Of a stretch of DNA of 64,000 bases, positions 4,932-19,700 are shown piece by piece; positions within the stretch are counted from its first letter, which is position 1, and every line of letters begins with the position of its first letter. The position numbers and the translations under genes are program-made. Location: the NCBI RefSeq assembly GCF_000002865.3, contig NW_001865048.1, positions 646,098 to 710,097 on the forward strand. The letters are read 5' to 3'. This DNA is from Monosiga brevicollis MX1 (taxonomy: Eukaryota; Opisthokonta; Choanoflagellata; Craspedida; Salpingoecidae). Under the pieces are notes generated by a model that worked only from the letters and a program-made list of their open reading frames with translations, did no database searches and was not told where the DNA came from.

Positions 4932-7825
4932 CTACTTGCGCACACTCAACGATTCATTTGGCATGTAGCCAAAATCAAGCGTTGGGGGCACCTCACTCAG
5001 ACTGCTCAACACAGTACGCAGCGAAGAGCCGCCCAGAGGTGTGGCGTTGGTCGAAGCAATACGAGCCGAGCGGCGCACGGGTGTGAAAACAACTTCGGTG
5101 CCTAGTTCATCTCGCACGCGGCGGGAAGGCGTCGTACGAGCAAAGCGGATGACGCTGCCTGTCTCTTGATTCTCTTCGTCCATGTCCCTGTCTTGGGGTG
5201 CGATCCGCTTGCGAGCAGAAAAGGGGGTGCGCTGAAGAGCCGAGCGGCGATGGGCCGCGCGACCCACAGACCGCGTTGGCGTAAAAGCAATGAGGTCTGC
5301 CTGGCCGTTGCGTGAAGCCGCGGGAAGCGGTGATTCCATCAAAAGCGCATCCAGATCGTTGACGTTCCCATCACCCAAAGCAGGTGACTGGCAAGCAGGC
5401 TGGGCGGATGCCGTCATGGACATGCGCACCGTCTGGGCCAATGGGGTTTCAGGGGCCAAGAGTGGGGAGAGCAGGGAATCAGAGTTTGCAAAGGCAGAGG
5501 CACGACGGCTGCGCATGGCAGGTGGGGGGGTGGCCACCTCGATCAGCTTGGCTACCGCTGGGTTCGGCTTGTATGCCACATTGGCCGGGTCAGCATCAGC
5601 TGTTGGTGCTGGACGTCGGTACTTGGAAGGTGTTTGGCGTGTGGAACGACGCACGGGCGTCAACACGACCTCTGAACCCAGCACTTCCTGCTCTTTGCGA
5701 CTGGCGCGCATCGGTGTCAACACAACAGTTGAGCCGTTAACCTCAGCCGTGGTCGATCCAAAGTTGCCTGAAGGGCCCGGCGCGTTGGTTGCGCTGGCCG
5801 CTGCCATTGGCTGGGCCATATCAGAAGCTGCGTCTGACGCATCGTCCTGCTGGCGGCGGGCGCGCATGCGCTGAATAAAGGCACGCGCCTGTGACACGCG
5901 AGCCGGTGCCTGAGCTGCCGACGCCTTGCGTGTGCTAAGTTAACCAATTGGAGCATTTGAGAAGCACACGTGCCTTGGTAAGCTGAGCGAGAAAGAACCT
6001 GCATCCCCCGTCGGAGGACCACCCGGCCACAAAAGCAGATTCCAACATCGAAATGGAGCAATCATCCCAAAGGCGCATATCGCGCAAAGAAGTGCTTATG
6101 CTTTTGAAAAGGAAAATAATAGGAAAAACATCGGAAAGACAACGCGACGCACCTCTTGGTTTTCTTGACGCGCTTCTTTTTGGGAGCGGCAGGTTCATCC
6201 TCTGCCGGCTGCCAGGCATTGTTCTTCAGCATGTCCAAGTTTTCAAAGCGCTTTTGCAGCTGTTCAACTTGAGGCTGGACACACGCGTCCCAATACCCGT
6301 CCAGATCACTCAGTTTCGTGCGACCCCCCTGGCGGCAGTCCTGGCAGAGGGATTCAAACTTGGAGAGCTTTTTGCGACTCAAAAGACGTGCTTGCCCAAT
6401 AGTGGCACGAATCTCATCACCGCTCTCCGAGTTGACGGCATCGGCTTCGGGAGTCATCGCTTCCCACTTGTTGCAGAGCTCAGCCAGGTAGCGCAGTTGA
6501 CATTGCAGCTGAGACTCGAAAAATTCAATGCTTTGATAACTCAGACCCTTCGCTGTCTCTGGTGTCTATGGTTGTCGACCAAAATAAATGTGAGTTTTTG
6601 GGGCATCCCACCAGCTGTTGGGCTGAGTGTCGACCCAGCCTGGACTGCAAGGGCTCGACGGATGCAATCAAGCAGAAGACAACAAGAGCAGACACACGAG
6701 CAGGCGAAGTGTAGGTGTTCGTACCTCATCGCTGGTGGCAGCTGTCACTTCTTGGTCGGATAGATCTGAAGTGATGGTTGTGTTTGACAGTCGTTGGCTG
6801 CCACTGGTCGTGGGGCGCGTGGGCGAAGCCGTGTCACGGGGGCCGACGAGGCAGCAGTCCTCAAGTTTCTCCAGGAGCGCATTAGGGCTATTGCTGGCCT
6901 CATAAGCCAGGCTCTTGGCTGCACCGCGCGCCAAGGCGGGAGTGCTGGTGGCCATCAGAGGGTCAGCGAGCGCCACTGGTGAGGCGATCTGAACCTTGGT
7001 CTGCAAAGCATCACTTGTGGGTGTCTCTGGGACATCTTTGGAGGGCTGCTGAACATCAATCACGGGCTGGTGCTGAAACAGAGGCGCCGTAGGTTGCGTG
7101 GCCTGAAACACAAAAGGACCTGGGGCAGTGTTAAACGCGCCCACGCCCATACGCTGGTCATTTCCTGATGTCCTGCGGCTGTTGCTGGCAGCACCAAAGG
7201 CAAAGGGCTTGGTCATGCTCGCAAGACTGGGTGCTGCAGAGAAGTTGAAGGACTGCAGTGGGCGGGAGGACACAACAAAAGGCTTCTTGTTTGAATTCTT
7301 GGCGTCCGAGTGCTGTTGTTGGCGGCGACGCTCTGCTTGCCACAATAGCAGCTTTCGCTTGCGCGGGTCTGTGATGTGATCCAACGACATGTTCTCCTTG
7401 TTGCTGACGGGGGCTGTCGGTGCAGTGCATGACGTATGTGTGAGGTATGGGAAAGCAGGCACAAGCAGGGGGGGTGGGGGGAGGATTGGACCAAGCCGCC
7501 CGCCCACACCATCAGATCATGCGGACAGGCCCATTGACGTACAGCAAACGACAGGCGAAGGTGGCACGTTGCGGTGCTGTGTCCATTGAGAGAAACGAGC
7601 TTGGTCGCGCTCCTTGCGCTGAGCAAGCATGAACTGTTGCTTGGCTCGGACTGCGGCACCGGAGATGCGATGGCATAAAAGATATTCATTGTCACATGAC
7701 CAACCCTGAAGCTCGCGCAAGAGAAGGCTGACCCGCTTCCTCGATTTTCCCGCCGTATGCATGCGGCATAGCATTCGCCGCTGACGCACCTCGGTTATGT
7801 GATTTGAAGCGGAATTTCCGCTCAT
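4932..7825 (-). CDS. HURP/DLGAP5-like protein with GKAP domain
   Basis: Probable mitotic spindle protein of the DLGAP/GKAP family, closest in layout to HURP (DLGAP5), which binds and stabilises kinetochore microtubules. Exons 7825-7543, 7413-6725, 6565-6153 and 5934-4932 join in phase to 795 residues. The N-terminal third is basic and coiled-coil prone (KRKLLLWQAERRRQQQ) and contains a KEN box at residues 100-102 created across the first splice. The GKAP core follows, with IEFFESQLQCQLRYLAELC, FESLCQDC, LDGYWDACVQPQVEQLQKRF and LKNNAWQP matching the family's conserved Trp and Phe positions. The C-terminal exon carries three spaced copies of a VV.TPVR.S.R-like motif, possible Cdk sites. The promoter must lie in the 530 bases separating it from the TEX11-like gene's 3' end. 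HURP assignment over other DLGAPs is inference. Confidence 0.82.
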
Positions 7826-8356: not shown

Positions 8357-11300
8357 TCACTTGGCGCGCGTTGGTGCCGAGGTGCTGGTGGCAGCGGCGG
8401 CGGCAACCGTGACGAAATCTCGCTTCATGCGCTCCTCCAAGACTGGACGACAAGTAGCGGAGAGGAGAGGTAGCATGACCATGGCCAGGTTGCACAGATC
8501 TTGTCCTCGGGGCAATGCGTTGGCGTGCATCTCGATTCCAAGATTCCAGGCCTAAATAAACGGGATGGCACGGTCGCACATTTTGACTAATGGATGCTGA
8601 AGCCCCCAAGTCAAGGACTGCGCCTGGCTGGTGCAACGTACCTTGACCACAAACCAAAGAACCTGGGACTCGGTGCAGGCCGAGCGCAGCGCCGGCGATT
8701 GGCGCAAGAGTGTGTGTACTTGGTGGAGGCAACCCTCGAGCTGGAGCCTTTCCCGCACTGGCCCATGCTGTAGCACAAGGTGTGCAAAAAAACTATGGGG
8801 CTCACAAAGCCCAGAAAAGGGGTTTTGTGTGAGTTGGCGCAAAGCAAACAAAGCGAACACATGCGCAGTGCACAAGCCTCCTCACATTGACACATTGGGA
8901 ATGCACGACAAACATACAGAGCTTTTTGGCCTTCGGACAGCGTTGCCTCGCGATTGGATGGTACAGCCCAGGCTAGCCCCTTTTGGGCCAGCTCGAACAC
9001 AGCGCGCTGCCGCCCATGCTTTTCTGCCAAGCCTGGTCAAAGCAGGCCATGCAGGGTCAGCAGACATGAAAATGATCAGTCTACGTAATCGGGTGCAAGT
9101 GCCAGCGCGTTCGAACCACACGCCAATTCCAACAGTTGCAATCGATCTGAGCTTGATGCCAGGGTCTCCAGGGCCTGTACGATCGAAAAGGTACGCATTG
9201 ATGGTGTGGCCCAGTCACAACCACCTATGAGGGTAGGGTAGAATGTGCAAGGGCCCAAGCGAGGTAGGCAACCAAAAAATGGCTTTTTAAATCACATCAC
9301 CCACGGGTTCAAGGGGTTCCTGAAGCACCAGCCGTGCTTCCAGCAGGAGGAGCAAGTGAACACCAAGCATCATCGGCTCTTCATCTGCAAGGCATGACTC
9401 CACAGATTCTTGGGCGAGTAGGCTCCGCAGGGCGGCCTTGTCTTCTTCTCTGGCCTCGCCAGACAAGGAACAGCTCAGGGCCAGCAGCTTGGCGTGGCGG
9501 CCACGCCGCTGTTCCACAGCCTCAGAACTGATACTGCTGATCTGCAATAAGCAGAAGAACGTTTCAACAAACAAGAGACCGGTAATGTGAGCCTACTCTC
9601 TGTCACCTTCCCCTTCCCAATATCCCCCCTCCATGGCCCGGCGCAGACATAGATAAGATTGCTCCCACCCGTGCGGCAACGCCAAAGTATGCCGAGGCTA
9701 AGCCAGCAGCCTCATGACGTAGTGCTGTCACTGCCAGATTCCAAGCTGCCCAACACAATCAGCATACATTTCCGAGTTAGGCCATTTGTGCTTCTAATGC
9801 AACACTGTGCCTTCCGTACATGATACCTGTGCGCCCAAACCAAGCTGCTTCCTGATCACGTGCCACGCCCAATGGCGTGGCGTGCAATTCATCGAAAGCT
9901 GCGTCACACACATGAGCCCGAAAATTGAGGCACTGTCGAGTGCAAGCAAGTGCCTGCACCTAATGCTGCTGCATACCAACCAAGACCCAAGATGCGTAGC
10001 AAGTCACCGTCCCGCTGACTTGAAGCCAGCTCTTCACTGGACAGCAGGGAGGCCAAATATGAGAGTGTCTAAGGCTCGTGTGAATTTGTTTCGCATCTTT
10101 TCCGTGTTCTCTCTGGCGACGAGGATTGACCCCTCATGTTCAATGTTGTGCAGTTCGACTGACCTCTTGCTTGTCAACGTAAGATCTGCCAGCAGATTGA
10201 CGTAGCACCGCACCACGACCAACTTGTCGGGAAAATTCTCCTGCACAAGATGCTGACGAGTTGTATGTGAGCCTTGCAATGCCTGGTGGTACAAATGTCG
10301 TGCCTCTGAAAGCATATCCCGGACATGTGTATGACTTCACGCCGGTACCTGTAGGATGAGACAGGCCAGGTGGCGTTGGCGTTTTTGAAAGGCTGCCCCA
10401 AGCACGACATGCCAGGCTCCAAACCGCTCTTGAGGTGTTGCGTCTACCGTTGCCATGGTATGCACTAGCGCCTCTACATCTGCAGTTCTTGCTGGCGCCA
10501 GCTGGTCGTCGGTGGACTCGGCCAGATGGTGCAGAAGCACGATGCACGCCGCACGACATGACTGTCGACTCCACGGCTGCGCCAAGGCGGTAGCCTCGTC
10601 ATTCTGACCCATATGCCAAGCACACCAAGCCAAATTGGTCTAGAAGGGCCAAGTGGGTTCTCCAACATGAGCCGAGCGCCAACAGAGCCATGAACGCAAC
10701 ACCCTGACCAAAAACAGTTTGAACCTACCTGAATGGCCTGCTTCTGTTCGCCGCTGATGACGCCTTCCTGGGCCAGTTCATGGCACAGGAGAAACTGCGC
10801 ATGGGCATCATGAAATTGTTCCGCCTGTCGTCGAAGCGGGGACCATGTGAGCACGATTGAAGGTGACCCCAACAAACGCAGCAACGTATTGCTCTACTGA
10901 CGGCCTCCCATTGCAATGCGTGGCGCATCAGCGTGTGGAAGGCGCTTGCAACGGCCTCGCGGTGCTGCAGAACGTGAGGCACCCCTGGAAAAGAACCCGG
11001 TGCATCGTGGTGGTGTCAATAGCAGTACAAGAGCAGCGGGTACAGACACAAAGCCTGGTCGGTTGCCAACATACGGTCTAATCCAATACGTATAGCCATG
11101 GCACAGGCTGTAGGGTGGGTTGCAAACGCTGACATGCTCTCCGACACCACTGTCCAAAGATCTTCAATGGGGAGCGAGGACAGGAGCTTTCGCAACCCCT
11201 GAAGGGCAGCCTCTGCCACGTCCTGTTCTTGTGGCCTGGCCTGCAGCGAAGCCCCAAGTACTACAGCAGCACGTATCCACACCTTGACCTGACTGTCAGG

Positions 11301-11441
11301 GGCCTGTGCCAGCATGTCTACTTCTATCCATGTTTGTAGGTGCAGGTCATTAGGCACAAATGGATGAAAGCATGGCTGCACCTCGTGTGATGCGTCGCCG
11401 TGTTCCTTTTTTTTTTTTTTTTTTGTGACTTTGAGATGCGT

Positions 11442-11477
<36 letters not shown>

Positions 11478-12664
11478 GAAGGGGGGTGAGGTCAAAGGCG
11501 GGTAGAGCGGGCTTGGTGAAAGGGACGTACGTGAGGTAATGGCTGAAGCTGGGGCCTGGATGGCCAAAAGAACTTCAAGCAGCAGACAGGTGTTGATGGC
11601 CGACGCGCAAATTTGTACAGCCTGTTCTGCATACTCTCGCGCCTCGCGTGGGCGCTGGGCTGCCAACGATGCAAATGCCAACGTGCGAAAGGCATGATCT
11701 CCCAATTCGCGTCGCTCGTCGGCCTCCAGTGCCACCCTGTGAGGCATGCAACACGCTGTCAGCACGCTGCTCAAAGTTGCAGGGCACTGCATGTGGAACG
11801 AGTCTTACTGCAGCCATTCTGTTGCCTCCTCGACATGGTTGTCTTGCAGCAGTTTTACGCCCACATCAAATGGCGTGCGCCAAAGCAGCTTGCGCTTCAG
11901 TCAAAAGGTGTACAGGAAAGGGGCCACCACAAAAAGCGAATGGCACATGCGGACCAATGCCAACATGAGGACGGTGTCTTGGTGCCAAGGAGATGGTGCA
12001 CCAGGCAGGCAGGCAAACGTACCGCCAATGCAGGGACATCTTCGCGTGCCGTACGCAAGCCCTGCACATGGGCCAAGGCCTGGCGTGCTGCGCTCATATT
12101 GTTCTGGGCTACCTGTAGCCGCACACAGCAGCACCAATAGGCCACGTAGGGCAGCAGGTCAGCCTCCTGCAGGTCAGCTTGCAAAGCACGCGCCGCCTTG
12201 TCACCAAGATCTAAATACAGCATGGGCTCGCTGCTGGCCTCTGCCGCCCCCGTTGCCATGACCAGCTGTTGGCGTAGCCGACGATGGTTGCATGCATCCA
12301 CCCCTGCGCCAAAGGCCAGTCGCGCAGACCACGCCTTGGCTGTGTCGTCGCAATAACGACAGAAACCCAATACAAGATGTGGTCAGTGAGGAGTAGAGCA
12401 CGTGAACGCAGACACACCGAGCGAAGAGACGATATAAGGGTTGCGATTACCGGTCGTTGAGGTGGGCATGGCTCCATGGCGCAAGGACGCGTTCCACAAT
12501 GCGCGCGCGGTCTCCAGCTGCTGCTCCTCCTCAAGCTCTTGTACCCAAGTAGCAAGCAGCTCAGGTGAGATCGCGTGAATTATCTCGTTCATTTGGCTGC
12601 CATCGCAATCGCTGAGTTGCGTTTGCAACTGGCGCGCCCGTTCGGTCGCTTCCATGCCGGCCAT
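8357..12664 (-). CDS. TEX11: meiotic TPR-repeat protein TEX11/ZIP4/SPO22-like
   Basis: Meiosis-specific helical-repeat (TPR-like) scaffold of the SPO22/ZIP4/TEX11 family, which acts at crossover sites on meiotic chromosomes. At least twelve exons read leftwards. Family signatures appear in the right order: TPR-like helices with LLWRTPFDVGVKLLQDNHVE and EEATEWLQ (11888-11809); VALEADERRELGDHAF with AAQRPREAREYAEQAV (11736-11531); a long helical segment VKVWIRAAVVLGAS (11323-11048); the hallmark AWNLAVTALRHEA (about 9750-9650); and the C-terminal VLWFVVK plus AWNLGIEMHANAL, ending at a TGA at 8357. These match, in position and spacing, TEX11's C-terminal 'W..VK.WN.G' block as I recall it. The first ATG of the open frame is 12793; ATG 12664 (MAGMEATERARQ) is more family-like and is used here. 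An intron at 11530-11324 holds two poly-T tracts. It is divergently paired with DMC1. A few middle junctions are approximate. Confidence 0.84.
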
Positions 12665-12793
12665 CCTCTGCCTTGGGTTCGGCCAGAGTTTGAAGCCACA
12701 GAGACCATGCAACAAATGCGCCATGTTTGTTTTGGCGGGAAAATTATCACTTTGTCGACAATTCGAATGCTCAACGTGCTGACGTGTTACCAT

Positions 12794-12878
12794 CCTTCCT
12801 CCCCTATGTTGTTGTTTATTTTGTTTTGTTTTGTTTTGTTTTGAATATTACATCAGATGTATGTTTTTTTTGTAACAT

Positions 12879-12965
<87 letters not shown>

Positions 12966-13178
12966 GGTTCCTATGTTCATGTGGGTTAGTCAATGCTAAT
13001 AACAAGGTGCATGCTCTTAGGCCCCTGCTTCTGGTCAACGACTCCAAGGAGAAAGCGGCATTTATCTTTGCCGGGTTCACAGTCGCTTTGCATGGTGCCA
13101 TTGTTCTCGCTTAGTCAAACACTGAGAAATTAGTCAAAAATTACTGAATATTCAGGCGAAATTGCAAGAAGTGCCATC
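12794..13178. promoter_or_regulatory. shared TEX11/DMC1 divergent promoter region with (CT)n
   Basis: About 385 bases (515 from the preferred TEX11 ATG) separate two divergent meiotic genes. It contains a (GTTTT)n tract at about 12818-12842 and a near-perfect CT run at 12880-12962. The promoter function is inferred only from position. I could not identify a TATA box or a named transcription-factor site with confidence. Confidence 0.55.
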
Positions 13179-14775
13179 ATGGCAGCCGAGATGGAACGCG
13201 AAGTCCCAGACGTGGCAGCCGCTGCCCTGGACGCGGACGAGGAGGAGGCGACATTCAACTTGATTGAGGAACTGCAAAGTACTGGCCTCGGGTAAGACAT
13301 ACGAGTAGTAGTGGGAAAATGCATTTTCCTACGACGACGAGCGCATCAACTTTGCCGCCATAGTTGCATTGCGCGGGCGCTGGGCCCGATTGATGCAGCG
13401 CCCACAAGCCTCTGCATTTTTTGTCATCAATGCCTGCCACCCCCTTCGCATTGAGTGGCGATCGCGGGCTGGGACGGCTGATGAAGGTGACCCTTGATTA
13501 ATTGTTCACCACAGCTGCTTGATGCATGGGCCGGCTCTGTGCTAGGATGCCGGATATCAGCAAGCTCAAAGCGGCAGGCTACCATACAGTCCAACACGTG
13601 CTCTCTCGCCATCCCAAGTACTTGAAGGACATCAAAGGGTTCTCCGAAAGCAAGGCCGAAAAGGTAGGCGCCCTAGGGCCAGTCTGCCTGGGTCGCATCT
13701 GCAGGGACGCACATGATTCTGATCGTGGTTGCTGCATTCACAGGTGCTGGACAGCTGCAACAAGCTGCTGGGAGTGGTCAATGCGTTCAAAACAGCCAGC
13801 TCGCTGCTAGACGAGCGTCAGTCGGCCATCTTTCACATCACGTCCGGCTCCAAGGAGTTTGATTCCCTTTGCGGCGGGTGGGAGTCACGTACCATCACAG
13901 AGCTGCATGGTGAATACCGCACCGGCAAGACGCAGTTGTGTATGACAGCGGTATGTCGAGTTGAGATGCATCAACGTGATACACGCAATTGTACCTCGTG
14001 ACCCTTGTGCCTTGCTCAAACTGGTCAGCGCCCTCATTCGGCGCACACATGCCCAATGAACCAGGCCATTACGGCACAACTGCCCAGCGAGGATGGGCGC
14101 TACAAGGGTGGCAAGGTGGTCTACATCGACACCGAGGGGTCGTTTCGCCCCGAACGCTTGGAGGCAATCGCCGAACGCTACAACGTCGAATACCGCGACG
14201 CACTGGACAACATCGTCTACGCGCGCGTTTACAATTCCGATCAACTGGTAAGGCACGACCCCAAAGTCGCGATACGCTCTAGGGGCATGCTATAGCCCTG
14301 GGGCAGTACAGCTGCAGACACTTATGGGCGCTCATGCCTGCTTGTTCCTACTTAGGCTCGCACAATTGAGCATCTGGCAGCATTGCTGGCTGAGGACCGG
14401 TATGTGCGGCTGGTTGTCATTGACAGTATCATGGCTACCTTCCGATGCGACTACATTGGTCGTGGCGAGCTATCTGAGCGCCAGCAGCAGCTGAATCAGG
14501 TCCTGACCAACATCAAGCGGTTGGCTGAAAGTCACAACGTGGCGGTCATTGTCACGAACCAGATGCAGTCGGACCCTGGCAACACCATGAGCTTTGTGCC
14601 CGACCCCAAGAAGCCTGTCGGCGGGCACATCTTGGCGCACGCTGTGCACGTGCGAATTGCACTACGCAAGGGCAGTGGCGACCAGCGCGTGGCCAAGATT
14701 GTCCAAAGCTGCAACTCGTGTGAGAAGGACGCCACCTACCTTCTGACAGCTGGGGGCGTCGCTGACTCGATGTAG
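13179..14775 (+). CDS. DMC1: meiotic recombinase DMC1
   Basis: RecA/RAD51-family ATPase that forms the strand-exchange filament in meiotic recombination. Exons 13179-13291, 13546-13663, 13744-13950, 14065-14247 and 14356-14775 join in phase to 346 residues; human DMC1 has 340. Domains in order: acidic N-terminus; helix-hairpin-helix DNA-binding domain (GMPDISKLKAAGYHTVQHVL, then GFSESKAEK); Walker A GEYRTGKTQ; VVYIDTEGSFRPERL; Walker B LVVIDS; L1/L2 region with FRCDYIGRGELSERQQ and NVAVIVTNQM. The C-terminus has PVGGHILAHA, RIALRKG and TAGGV.D, the DMC1 rather than RAD51 form. The acceptor at 14065 was chosen because it restores exactly the human spacing between Walker A and TAQLP. The gene is transcribed away from the TEX11-like gene, which acts in the same meiotic process. 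Confidence 0.96.
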
Positions 14776-16298: not shown

Positions 16299-16763
16299 AT
16301 TTCCATTCCTGCATTCAACGGCGCGTGCATCAATTTTTTGGATTTGGATTTGGATTTGGATTTGGATTTGTTGGGTCAAGTCTTGGGGGTAGGCGTGAGG
16401 GCAAGAGGTTGTGGTCACGGTGGTAGGCATTGGTGGGAGGGTCAAAGCGTGTTGCGGCGCATCTAGTGTAAAGGCACATGTGCAGCGTGCGTGGAGGTGG
16501 GCTGAAGATACAGGCCAAGCTGCACCCGGCTGGTCAGCTGCGACTCGCCAGCCATTAACGTTTGGGCTCCTCGCGACCGTTTTATTGCTGAAGCAGATCA
16601 TGGATATTCGGTGATTCTAGGCATTGAATGGCTGTATTGATCGCTTGCTACGCTGCCTCTGCCTGCAGTGGGCGAGACCCCCCTCGCAAATCATTGCCTT
16701 CGCCCCGACCCCCAGTTTTAGCCCGTTAGAGCGGCCATCGTGCTCGACGTTCGCGGGGTCGAG
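15957..16763. repeat. divergent intergenic region with (GA)n 16229-16296 and (TTTGGA)n 16336-16369
   Basis: This region lies between the divergent unknown gene (-) and the PIGZ-like gene (+). It has a GA-rich zone from about 16046 that culminates in a pure GA run of about 68 bases, then about five copies of the hexanucleotide TTTGGA. No coding exon seen. Confidence 0.85.
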
Positions 16764-19700
16764 ATGGAGACGGAGACATCACGTCGGTCAAGCCGGTCTC
16801 GCGCCGAGCCAGATAAACCCAAGCGCGAGCAAGTGCTGGCTTTCAGCCATCGCATCTACTTTCTGAGCATAGCTCTTCGAGCCTGGCTCACGCTCTCCGT
16901 CAACACCAGCTATCTCCATCCAGACGAGGGCGATGGCGTGCGTCAACTTCAAGGTTGGTATCGGCGCCCAGCAAGCTGGGTGGTCATCGTCTGGAAGATA
17001 ATCACTTTGCTCTCAGGTCGCGCTGACCTATGTGTCATGTTGTGCAGGCGATCTCTTCTCGCTTTTGACGGCCAACGATCGTGTGCGAAGCAGCGTCTGG
17101 CCCTTGCTGACCATCGGCCTACCCAAATTCATCATGAGCTGCCTATTTGGACCAGGTAGTGGCAGAGCTCGTGATCAACGAAACAGCTTGACCAATCCAA
17201 TCCCGTGACTCATCTCGCATTGGCCATTAGATATTGCCCTCAAGCCCGAGCTCCTTCTCTGCAGTACCCGCGTCTTTATGCTCATCTTGACTTTTGTGAC
17301 GGGTCGGTCCTCTTTTTCTCTCGCTCATTTGCCGACAGCAAAGTTCGAGTGTGCCTCACGCTTCTGCTTCGATCTGTCCTTGATGCCTTTTAGACTATGC
17401 CATCCGACGTACCTGCCTGCATCTTGGCCTGGACCACTATGCTACCCTGGCCATGCTGGGTTCTTCTGTCGCAATGATTGTGTTTCACACCCGGTAGGCG
17501 CACAATGGCCCTGTCGTCTGCTGGACAACTTGCTCTCTTTTGGCAAAGGCAAGCTCAATGTACTGTCAACTCATCGGCTGGATGGGCGCGCTGTTTGCTA
17601 GACCCTTGCAGGGCTCGGTGGACATGACATTGATCAGCCTTCTCATGTGGGCACTTGCAACAATACTTCGTGGTTGTGTTGCCTTTCCCACATCCCTTCA
17701 AAGGCTGTCACACATGGCGGGTCTCGAACATCAGCGTCGCCAAGAGCTCAGCTGTGCTGTAAGAACCCCGGTCCACGGCACTCAGCAGTTGGGATCATCG
17801 TCATCGTTATCGTCAGATGGCAAATCAAGTGGCGACGCTTGTGCGCTGCAGTCCGACCAGCGCCTACTTGTCTTGAGCGCTCGGAGTGCAGCGCTACGCG
17901 AGACGTGTTGGCGCGAGTGGCGACGCATCACAGCTTGGCTGAACTGGATGAGCTTAATTTGGACAGGCCTTCTCTTCAACAACGTGCTGACTGCACTCAT
18001 CGCCGTAAGATTTCATGACCTGTACCCTTGGGCCACCAAGTTCATAGCAGGGGCTTGGACTCATGACGCCAGCTGGTGGCTTTCGCTCCGTCTTGCGCCC
18101 GTACCGTAGCTTCCGGCCATCATTCTGGTCATTCGACATTTATTCCAACTTCGCAGGTGTGTGACAAATCTAGCTTCGACAGAGAATATCTGTTTCCTTG
18201 AAATTAGAAGCGCTTGCACGCGTGCACCTCTTCTGCTTCTGCTTCTGCTTCTGCTTCTTCTCATGCTAGGTGTCTTCTTTCTGTCTGGCAGCTTGCGCGT
18301 GCATGGGAAGCATGTGCGCCGCGATCTCCTCATCGAGGTTTTGACCACGGTACTGCTGTCTGGAGCCTGTTTGACCTTTTTTGATACCGTGCTCTCCAAC
18401 TGGACCGAGCTTTCACAGGTTGGGTCTTGCTGCAATGGCAACCCTCAACTTGAGTGGTTGTGCCTGGCGCCTTGACTTTTCGGATGGGTAAAGCACGTCT
18501 TGTTGATCGCACCACTTGATCGATTTATGCCTTTTGTTCTCTGTTCTCCCCATTGTGTCCATCACCTAGGGCCGATGGCCAAAGCGCATCATTGTGCCAC
18601 CCCTTTTTGGATTGCGGCGCCAACGCATGTTCTTCCAAGCCACGGCACCAAATGTATGTTCTTGCCTGACTGCTGTGGCTTTAGGGGTGGGTGCACACAT
18701 TGTCTTCACCTGATCAACATCCGTTCTCGGGATTAGCAAATTGGCGGATTACATGCCATCCTTTTAGCCACGGTTTTTCTGGGCGTTTTTGTGTGGTGGC
18801 TGTTGGATGTCAGCGCCAGCGCCCTCGCCAATCCCCGTTCTCAGTTTGCGCTTGAGGTGAACGAGGTCAGTGTTTACAGCTCTCGAGTCTTGGAGGACAG
18901 CTGCTCCATCGTACTGTTGACCTCGCTCATGAACACGATTCTGACACTTTTTTTACGGCTGTCCGCCCATCACTCTCCTTCTTCCATGAGAGTTCAGGTG
19001 GTGTGGCGTGGACATCGGCCCAAATTAGGTAGCAACTCACCCTTGGTCAGCTTTGTCAAGTACATGTCCATATCTTGGGCCCTGGGCTTTGCCTGTCTAG
19101 TCCTCTCGGGCCATGACATTGCCATATGGTGCGTACCCATCGTTGTATCGGCGTAGCTTTGCGCGGGTCTGACCATGCTGTGTGCCACACGTGCTCGCGG
19201 GGACGTCGGCGTGACCAACAGGGACCTGTCTGGCTTGATAGTTCCAGTGGCAATCGTCTTTGGCACGCGCACTTTTGGTCGTATTGCCGTCAACTCGTCT
19301 CCCTTGGCCTGGATTGCCCTGAACTTGTGTCTTGTGTGCTACTATGGAACACTGCTTCAGGTATGTATTGCGCCTCGCCTGATCTTTGAGAGTGAGCTTG
19401 TGCTTGCTGATGGGCTTGTTTCCGGACACGACTTGATCTTGAGAGAGGCCTGCCTCATCTGATCTCCGTTTCATGGTTGCATCTTACTTGTTGCTGCTGG
19501 GGTATTTAGAGTGGTGTGACGCCCGCTCTCAAATATGTCTACTCGGAGCTTCAGCATGATCGTTATCGCGGCGATATCCAGGTAACGATTTGCGTTGCTC
19601 CGATGGCGCACCTATGCGCTGAGCCAGATTTGGGATTGTTCATGCTTGCATTGGTGCCTCATGGGCAATGGCAATCATTCTACCAGTCGATTGCCGTGTA

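Follow-up and report, generated by a model that had tools for sequence, protein, structure and literature searches.

Promoters in which an E2F-like site stands beside a second short motif are known from the CDE/CHR elements of DREAM/MuvB. A single motif may also mark an entire pathway, as in Holozoa, Monosiga included, where the genes of ribosome biogenesis form a regulon with the E(CG)-box, which the accessible part of its source links to CACGTG and Myc/Max (PMC2570694). For meiosis, the accessible text of another report states that mouse E2F6 binds TCCCGC, a sequence highly conserved in the promoters of meiosis-specific genes, and that it silences germline genes (PMC8195999). Here we analyse a stretch of 64,000 nucleotides from the choanoflagellate Monosiga brevicollis (hereafter the window: contig C47, positions 646098-710097, within the 39.47-Mb assembly), in which the DMC1 gene (plus strand, 13179-14775) and a ZIP4/TEX11-like gene (minus strand, 12664-8357) lie head-to-head, 8357 and 14775 being the ends of the two stop codons. 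The gap between them contains, near the ZIP4-like start, the sequence TTTGGCGGGAAAATTATCACTTTGTCGACAA, composed of an E2F-type site and a palindrome. Judged from the sequence, the pair consists of DMC1 and, very likely, a ZMM scaffold of the ZIP4/TEX11 type, likely sharing a promoter region with a composite element of meiotic recombination genes, which would most likely act as a switch for an E2F/DP-type factor and a partner.

The element resembles CDE/CHR in combining an E2F-like site with a second short motif at restricted spacing, and differs from it in that the second motif is not TTTGAA. With the E2F6/PRC1.6 system of mammalian germline genes, as described in the accessible text, it has in common TCCCGC-type E2F sites in meiotic promoters; the second motif there is an E-box, found in 661 of 2533 peaks (PMC8195999), whereas here it is TTGTCGACAA at restricted spacing. 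Like the E(CG)-box, as far as the available part of that source goes, it would mark a whole M. brevicollis pathway with one promoter motif, although both the pathway and the motif are different (PMC2570694). No report of the composite element or of the DMC1/ZIP4-like pair was found in the papers searched, to judge by listings and by the accessible portions of PMC4132317 and PMC10133878, and among the matches listed for the string TTGTCGACAA none concerned choanoflagellates.

The gap between the two start codons measures 514 bp when counted from the MAGM start of the ZIP4-like protein. This start is our choice: in-frame upstream ATGs leave it uncertain, and with such an ATG the gap shrinks to about 385 bp. 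Both versions agree with the gene positions and the 385-515 base spacing proposed earlier from the letters of the window (the sequence-only reading). The features of the gap are as follows.

12665..13178, no strand: head-to-head intergenic region common to both genes, 514 bp
12731..12743, minus strand: E2F-type site TTTTCCCGCCAAA, with 36 exact copies genome-wide against 1 in the reversed control
12752..12761, no strand: palindrome TTGTCGACAA, second half of the composite and its only copy in the window
12880..12963, no strand: (CT)42 microsatellite, separating the composite element from DMC1

The label "E2F-type" has two grounds: the match to the E2F consensus and the presence of an E2F gene close to one site of this kind. 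The composite is 70 bp away from the start of the ZIP4-like gene and 417 bp away from that of DMC1, and the interval 12600-13250 contains neither a second palindrome, with two mismatches allowed, nor a second E2F core.

Across the genome, the E2F site and the composite are both far more frequent than their reversed controls. The 13-mer TTTTCCCGCCAAA has 36 copies (14 + 22; reversed control 0 + 1), and the 12-mer TTTCCCGCCAAA, drawn from the DMC1 region, has 72 (28 + 44; reversed control 2 + 1 = 3). The E2F consensus site is thus over-represented (72 against 3), and it is promoter-proximal, the composite lying 70-417 bp upstream of nine starts. A degenerate E2F consensus proved less clean (163 against 44 in the control), and the number of TTTSSCGC 8-mers in the window (18 against 13 expected) was close to that expected by chance. 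The composite patterns GCGGGAA-N(2-32)-TTGTCGACAA and TTCCCGC-N(2-32)-TTGTCGACAA yielded 40 and 19 matches, with none in either reversed control. These 59 matches in the 39.5-Mb genome, two of which overlap (C56:1142560 and 1142582), all place the centres of the E2F site and the palindrome 14-25 bp apart, though distances of up to 42 and 39 bp were permitted. The distances peak at 14, 19-21 and 23-24 bp, which may reflect constraints of DNA face or orientation.

Such a distribution might also arise if the element were part of a repeat family copied through the genome, and a limited amount of copying is indeed visible: two clear duplicated-locus pairs (L030/L051 and L032/L033) and one local duplicate (within L036) are found among the loci of the 36 13-mers. 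Yet the 36 sites fall into 28 clusters of flank similarity, several of them joined only by short or repeat-like matches, and the meiotic genes appear by eye to have no more in common here than the two motifs and their spacing. We regard dispersal as a repeat as highly improbable.

The genes bearing the element point to a common switch for meiosis, placed upstream of most of the other meiotic recombination genes examined. Meiotic genes were located by family searches of the genome (HOP2, MND1, MutS, TP6A, HORMA and RAD51), and the composite was compared at recombination-family and MutS loci. With start codons chosen by eye, the element lies 70 bp from the start of the ZIP4-like gene, 100 bp from SPO11, 110 bp from MSH4, 146 bp from HOP2, 178 bp from MRE11, 192 bp from MSH5, 210 bp from HORMAD, 328 bp from RAD51 and 417 bp from DMC1; it also occurs beside TRIP13 and an HFM1-like helicase gene. 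HOP2 and HORMAD are identified by their PDB matches (HOP2, E 1.8e-13; HORMAD1, E 1.9e-5). The SPO11 locus (C55) has a TP6A domain (E 2.5e-12), its name coming from sequence blocks that we take to be those of SPO11. MSH4 and MSH5 contain a MutS domain, whose score falls short of the Pfam cut-off when exons are scanned singly, as was done here; MSH5 matches mainly MSH2 and MutS in PDB, MSH4 has no PDB match, and the paralogue names come from blocks that are presumably diagnostic.

Six of the seven loci sought as meiosis-specific (SPO11, DMC1/ZIP4-like, HOP2, MND1, MSH4, MSH5 and HORMAD) carry the element. The palindrome was first spotted by eye at DMC1/ZIP4-like, SPO11, MSH5, HOP2 and RAD51, and then at MSH4, shortly ahead of the genome-wide search. 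Cleaner tests come from MSH4, HORMAD and MND1, and two of these three are positive. For 59 elements over ~9,200 genes, the chance of 6/7 is ~5e-13 and that of 2/3 is ~1e-4, with loci treated as independent and a gene number of 9,196 assumed; the two values are only rough, since some of these loci had served to define the motif. The element is absent from three other MutS loci (C24, C55 and C18), which on visual inspection look like MSH2, MSH3 and one MutS without a subfamily call.

A partly unbiased set is provided by the 34 non-window 13-mer loci, which were taken before the palindrome was noticed. The palindrome lies within ~50 bp at 13 of them (at L040 beside a second E2F word), and four of the 13 are recombination- or repair-type genes: MRE11 (PDB, E 1e-25), TRIP13/PCH2 (PADLOC TRIP13, 3.1e-28), an HFM1/MER3-like helicase, read by eye, with the related ASCC3 and Brr2 as its best PDB matches, and an XPD-family helicase (PDB, best FANCJ 9.8e-10, CHL1 5.6e-7). 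Three pairs of loci, L030/L051, L032/L033 and L035/L047, represent paralogous families with the composite near their starts, two of them (L030/L051 and L035/L047) with coiled-coil-like repeats; these families are candidate chromosome-axis or synaptonemal proteins, an identity that we do not claim. An E2F CC-MB domain (E 1.4e-18) is encoded by an exon at L046 (C47:527755-532755), ~1.1 kb from a palindrome-less E2F 13-mer, which may mean autoregulation. A Pfam scan of 52 open reading frames at the 34 loci for a known S-phase set returned the E2F gene and miscellaneous families, with no clear replication set. MYB-like AACGGTT/CCGTTT words were seen by eye near the composites of HOP2 and RAD51 (the L066 and L068 upstream regions); none occur in window positions 12600-13250.

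A number of observations pull in the opposite direction from a meiotic switch shared by DMC1 and a ZIP4-type gene. MND1 is without the element: the nearest composites are >60 kb away, and its 5.5-kb locus contains a single palindrome-like word, with two mismatches and with no E2F word alongside. The second TP6A locus (C41) also lacks it, which would make the tally 6/8 were that locus counted as meiotic. Nine of the 13 palindrome-bearing loci are not identified as recombination genes, three paralogue pairs are among the 13, and most of the 59 composite targets carry no gene identity. The assignments of SPO11, MSH4, MSH5 and HFM1 depend in part on sequence blocks read as diagnostic, and the roles of MRE11, RAD51 and the XPD-family helicase are not confined to meiosis. 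Within the window, the element is 417 bp from the DMC1 start, beyond the (CT)42 tract, and it would fall inside exon 1 of the ZIP4-like gene if the furthest upstream in-frame ATG were used (the ~385-bp gap). As for the minus-strand protein itself, its match to Pfam SPO22 is obtained with fragments only and stays below the cut-off (15.2 against 27.5 bits), and a search of the whole genome with PF08631 (SPO22) has its sole hit at another place (C23, E 0.07).

The presence of RAD51, MRE11 and the XPD-family helicase among the carriers, together with the palindrome-less 13-mer near an E2F gene, would fit a general S-phase or DNA-repair E2F module, under which the pair would be switched on with DNA replication. 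The composite is nevertheless found at SPO11, HOP2, MSH4, MSH5, HORMAD, DMC1 and the ZIP4-like gene and at none of the three other MutS loci, and the palindrome accompanies the site at only 13/34 of the other 13-mer loci, so that, on the recombination-family, MutS and 13-mer loci covered, we consider a general module rather unlikely.

The unequal distances, 70 bp against 417 bp with the (CT)42 tract between, raise a further alternative, in which only the ZIP4-like gene is under the element, DMC1 is transcribed from its own promoter near 13100, and the adjacency is a matter of chance; close divergent neighbours are common in compact genomes. No second palindrome or E2F core exists in 12600-13250, though one would expect DMC1 to be under common control with SPO11, HOP2 and MSH4/5, all of which bear the element. 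Of the alternatives this one has the best claim, and we still hold it to be unlikely.

The preferred reading, a shared element of meiotic recombination genes, modifies what was first proposed for the locus. The sequence-only reading had suggested co-regulation of the two genes through a common bidirectional meiotic promoter. Co-regulation is supported by the composite in the gap and at other recombination genes, and is better described as membership in a putative regulon of meiotic recombination genes across the genome than as a private bidirectional promoter: since the composite is found upstream of many recombination genes, the regulon appears to be spread over the genome, and nothing about it is special to the head-to-head layout. 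Bidirectional use is unproven because of the unequal distances and the tract on the DMC1 side.

Under the proposed mechanism, an E2F/DP-type factor and a second factor on TTGTCGACAA would bind side by side, and the bound pair would switch the genes on, or release their repression, together at entry into meiosis, driving both DMC1 and the ZIP4-like gene. The proposed targets would cover break formation (SPO11, MRE11), strand exchange (RAD51, DMC1, HOP2), axis and checkpoint functions (HORMAD, TRIP13) and class I crossover (MSH4, MSH5, HFM1-like, ZIP4-like). A bolder proposal, which we advance tentatively and with somewhat more doubt than conviction, is that this two-factor promoter code, an E2F site and TTGTCGACAA at restricted spacing, might be the master switch of choanoflagellate meiosis, uniting break, strand-exchange, axis and ZMM genes in one regulon whose other carriers would be new meiotic genes.

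The plus-strand gene has five exons with GT-AG introns and encodes 346 amino acids (aa) without stops.

13179..13291, plus strand: DMC1 exon 1, ATG at 13179, in a GT-AG model without stops
13546..13663, plus strand: DMC1 exon 2, GT-AG model
13744..13950, plus strand: DMC1 exon 3, Walker A GEYRTGKTQ, GT-AG model
14065..14247, plus strand: DMC1 exon 4, GT-AG model
14356..14775, plus strand: DMC1 exon 5, loops L1/L2, Gln244/Pro274/Gly275 equivalents and stop, GT-AG model and alignment

The protein has human DMC1 as its top PDB match (E 2.2e-99; best RAD51 1.7e-86) and scores 402.2 bits against NCBIfam TIGR02238 (DMC1), compared with 346.5 bits for RAD51. It misses the curated TIGR02238 cut-off of 447.7 bits, which is a threshold set by the database and does not define the protein biologically, and which is also missed by DMC1 of Salpingoeca rosetta (430.3 bits) and by the related rows P0002, P0004-P0006 and P0012, and is passed by P0007 and P0078. 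Human DMC1 has Gln244, Pro274 and Gly275 where RAD51 has Met, Val and Asp, according to the accessible text of PMC7809202. The window protein has Q, P and G at these published positions, and the separate RAD51 of M. brevicollis (contig C52) has M, V and D, which bears out the DMC1 call and the signature residues claimed for it by the sequence-only reading. Among 120 database relatives the three residues are present in 119/120, 119/120 and 109/120, respectively. In an unrooted tree of 40 rows, with 37 of the 120 relatives and two RAD51 rows only, the protein joins S. rosetta DMC1 and four EukProt rows with support of 100/97. Its own branch is long (0.91), and both RAD51 rows stand apart from this group. 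It agrees with DMC1, the RecA-family recombinase expressed specifically in meiosis, in its Walker motifs, its DMC1-specific loop residues, its best family scores and the existence of a separate RAD51 in the genome; it differs in having GGW before Walker A, one residue short of the GGG plus one residue seen in 10 of 11 displayed relatives. Family scores, lineage residues, tree grouping and long branch identify it as DMC1 of a fast-evolving choanoflagellate type.

The EukProt sequence P0012, whose branch is very long, falls among the choanoflagellate DMC1 rows, and it is the one relative of the 120 without Gln at the Gln244 position, having Met there, as in RAD51. A single Val row and a single Asp row appear at the other two lineage positions. 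None of the 120 best DMC1 relatives listed is named M. brevicollis, so the public gene set may lack the gene or contain a faulty model of it.

The minus-strand gene was modelled with 17 exons, all GT..AG, giving 868 aa without stops (12664-8357). This model replaced an earlier 16-exon version after comparison with the public partial model P0001 (MONBRDRAFT_25746, M. brevicollis MX1, 547 aa). The sequences are letter-identical wherever the exon choice agrees, and ours extends P0001 at the N terminus and adds a 291-base exon as well as further stretches. Unless stated otherwise, exons 6 to 17 below rest on the model and its comparison with P0001.

12451..12664, minus strand: ZIP4/TEX11-like exon 1, ATG at 12664, start uncertain owing to in-frame upstream ATGs
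12023..12339, minus strand: exon 2, 17-exon model
11809..11888, minus strand: exon 3, 17-exon model
11531..11736, minus strand: exon 4, TPR-like (Pfam), also in P0001
11075..11323, minus strand: exon 5, partly spliced out in P0001
10902..10984, minus strand: exon 6
10729..10824, minus strand: exon 7
10349..10639, minus strand: exon 8, absent from P0001
10164..10240, minus strand: exon 9
9981..10036, minus strand: exon 10
9827..9898, minus strand: exon 11
9669..9745, minus strand: exon 12, AWNLAV block
9301..9541, minus strand: exon 13, shorter in P0001
9117..9224, minus strand: exon 14
8914..9032, minus strand: exon 15
8642..8767, minus strand: exon 16, WFVVK at its end, shorter in P0001
8357..8551, minus strand: exon 17, AWNLG block and stop

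The SPO22/ZIP4/TEX11 family is itself built of TPRs, and its members are solenoids of TPR type some 850-950 aa long, with AWNLAV and AWNLG blocks presumably among their features; they bind ZIP2/SHOC1-SPO16 and further class I crossovers. The minus-strand protein is like them in its length class, these blocks, its weak TPR matches and the UniRef name of P0001, 'Protein ZIP4 homolog'; it is unlike them in being too diverged for Pfam SPO22. At 868 aa it falls in the size range, the signs of a solenoid being confined to TPR matches, all below their cut-offs, and a low-confidence helical model. In a 340-aa fragment TPR_2 (E 1.7e-4, 29 residues) ranks above SPO22 (E 0.015, 15.2 bits), whose match is collinear over 202 residues; in a 93-aa fragment SPO22 (E 0.024) comes after five families, namely four of TPR type (TPR_2 E 6.4e-6) and GlcNAc_2-epim (E 0.0029), both fragments having been cut by us to fit. 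The full-length model matches TPR_10 (E 0.025) with SPO22 absent, and Pfam has no match in its C-terminal 341 aa. The profile check proposed by the sequence-only reading therefore gave, at the Pfam level, the result it had named as adverse, with TPR families ahead of SPO22. This ranking is not decisive because the family consists of TPRs, the SPO22 match extends over 202 residues against 29 for TPR_2, and the UniRef name agrees.

Searches beyond Pfam, of NCBIfam and of PDB sequences among them, added little towards placing the protein in SPO22/TEX11. A PDB sequence search with an earlier 844-aa model matched no solved structure, and two protein searches, with that model and with 60 residues (7,997 and 83 candidates), reached only the species' own P0001 and no TEX11/ZIP4 relative outside M. 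brevicollis. AlphaFold2 run on P0001 alone gave an all-helical model of low confidence (pLDDT 52), with which Foldseek returned helical repeats of a generic kind. No match reached E 0.001, and nothing is drawn from them. The protein might accordingly be some other TPR solenoid, as the Pfam ranking, the SPO22 hit elsewhere in the genome, the want of outside relatives and the generic structural matches would allow. The UniRef name, the collinear SPO22 match and a control element in common with MSH4, MSH5 and an HFM1-like gene speak against this, and we find it improbable. The protein is ZIP4/TEX11-like and probably ZIP4, formal family membership not being established. The words AWNLAV and WFVVK/AWNLG, taken by the sequence-only reading as TEX11 blocks, are present, and the identity it proposed is likely in view of the name and the 202-residue match, although the sub-threshold score and the lack of relatives reached outside the species leave it weak.

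Elsewhere in the window, a second E2F-type sequence, TTTCCCGCC (7746-7754), lies ~355 bp upstream of a minus-strand gene (6062-7390), with no palindrome beside it; a later exon of this gene reads by eye like HURP/DLGAP5. At 16720-17160 there is a gene start with the words NTSYLHPDE, presumably that of a GPI mannosyltransferase of the PIGZ/SMP3 type.

Meiosis genes in M. brevicollis were reportedly described by Carr et al. in 2010, and the argument from gene content to sex in this species has been made before. The accessible part of a 2018 paper describes the evidence for sex in M. brevicollis as indirect and yet to be confirmed (PMC6188563). A promoter signature of recombination genes would be a second kind of evidence, because it suggests that selection keeps their co-regulation. 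The composite offers a readout of when meiosis is induced, and its 59 matches form a list for seeking new meiotic genes in a close animal relative. The element also provides a means of testing whether meiotic genes came under E2F control before animals arose; if the two-factor code is indeed the master switch of choanoflagellate meiosis, such control, known in mammals via E2F6, would predate animals.

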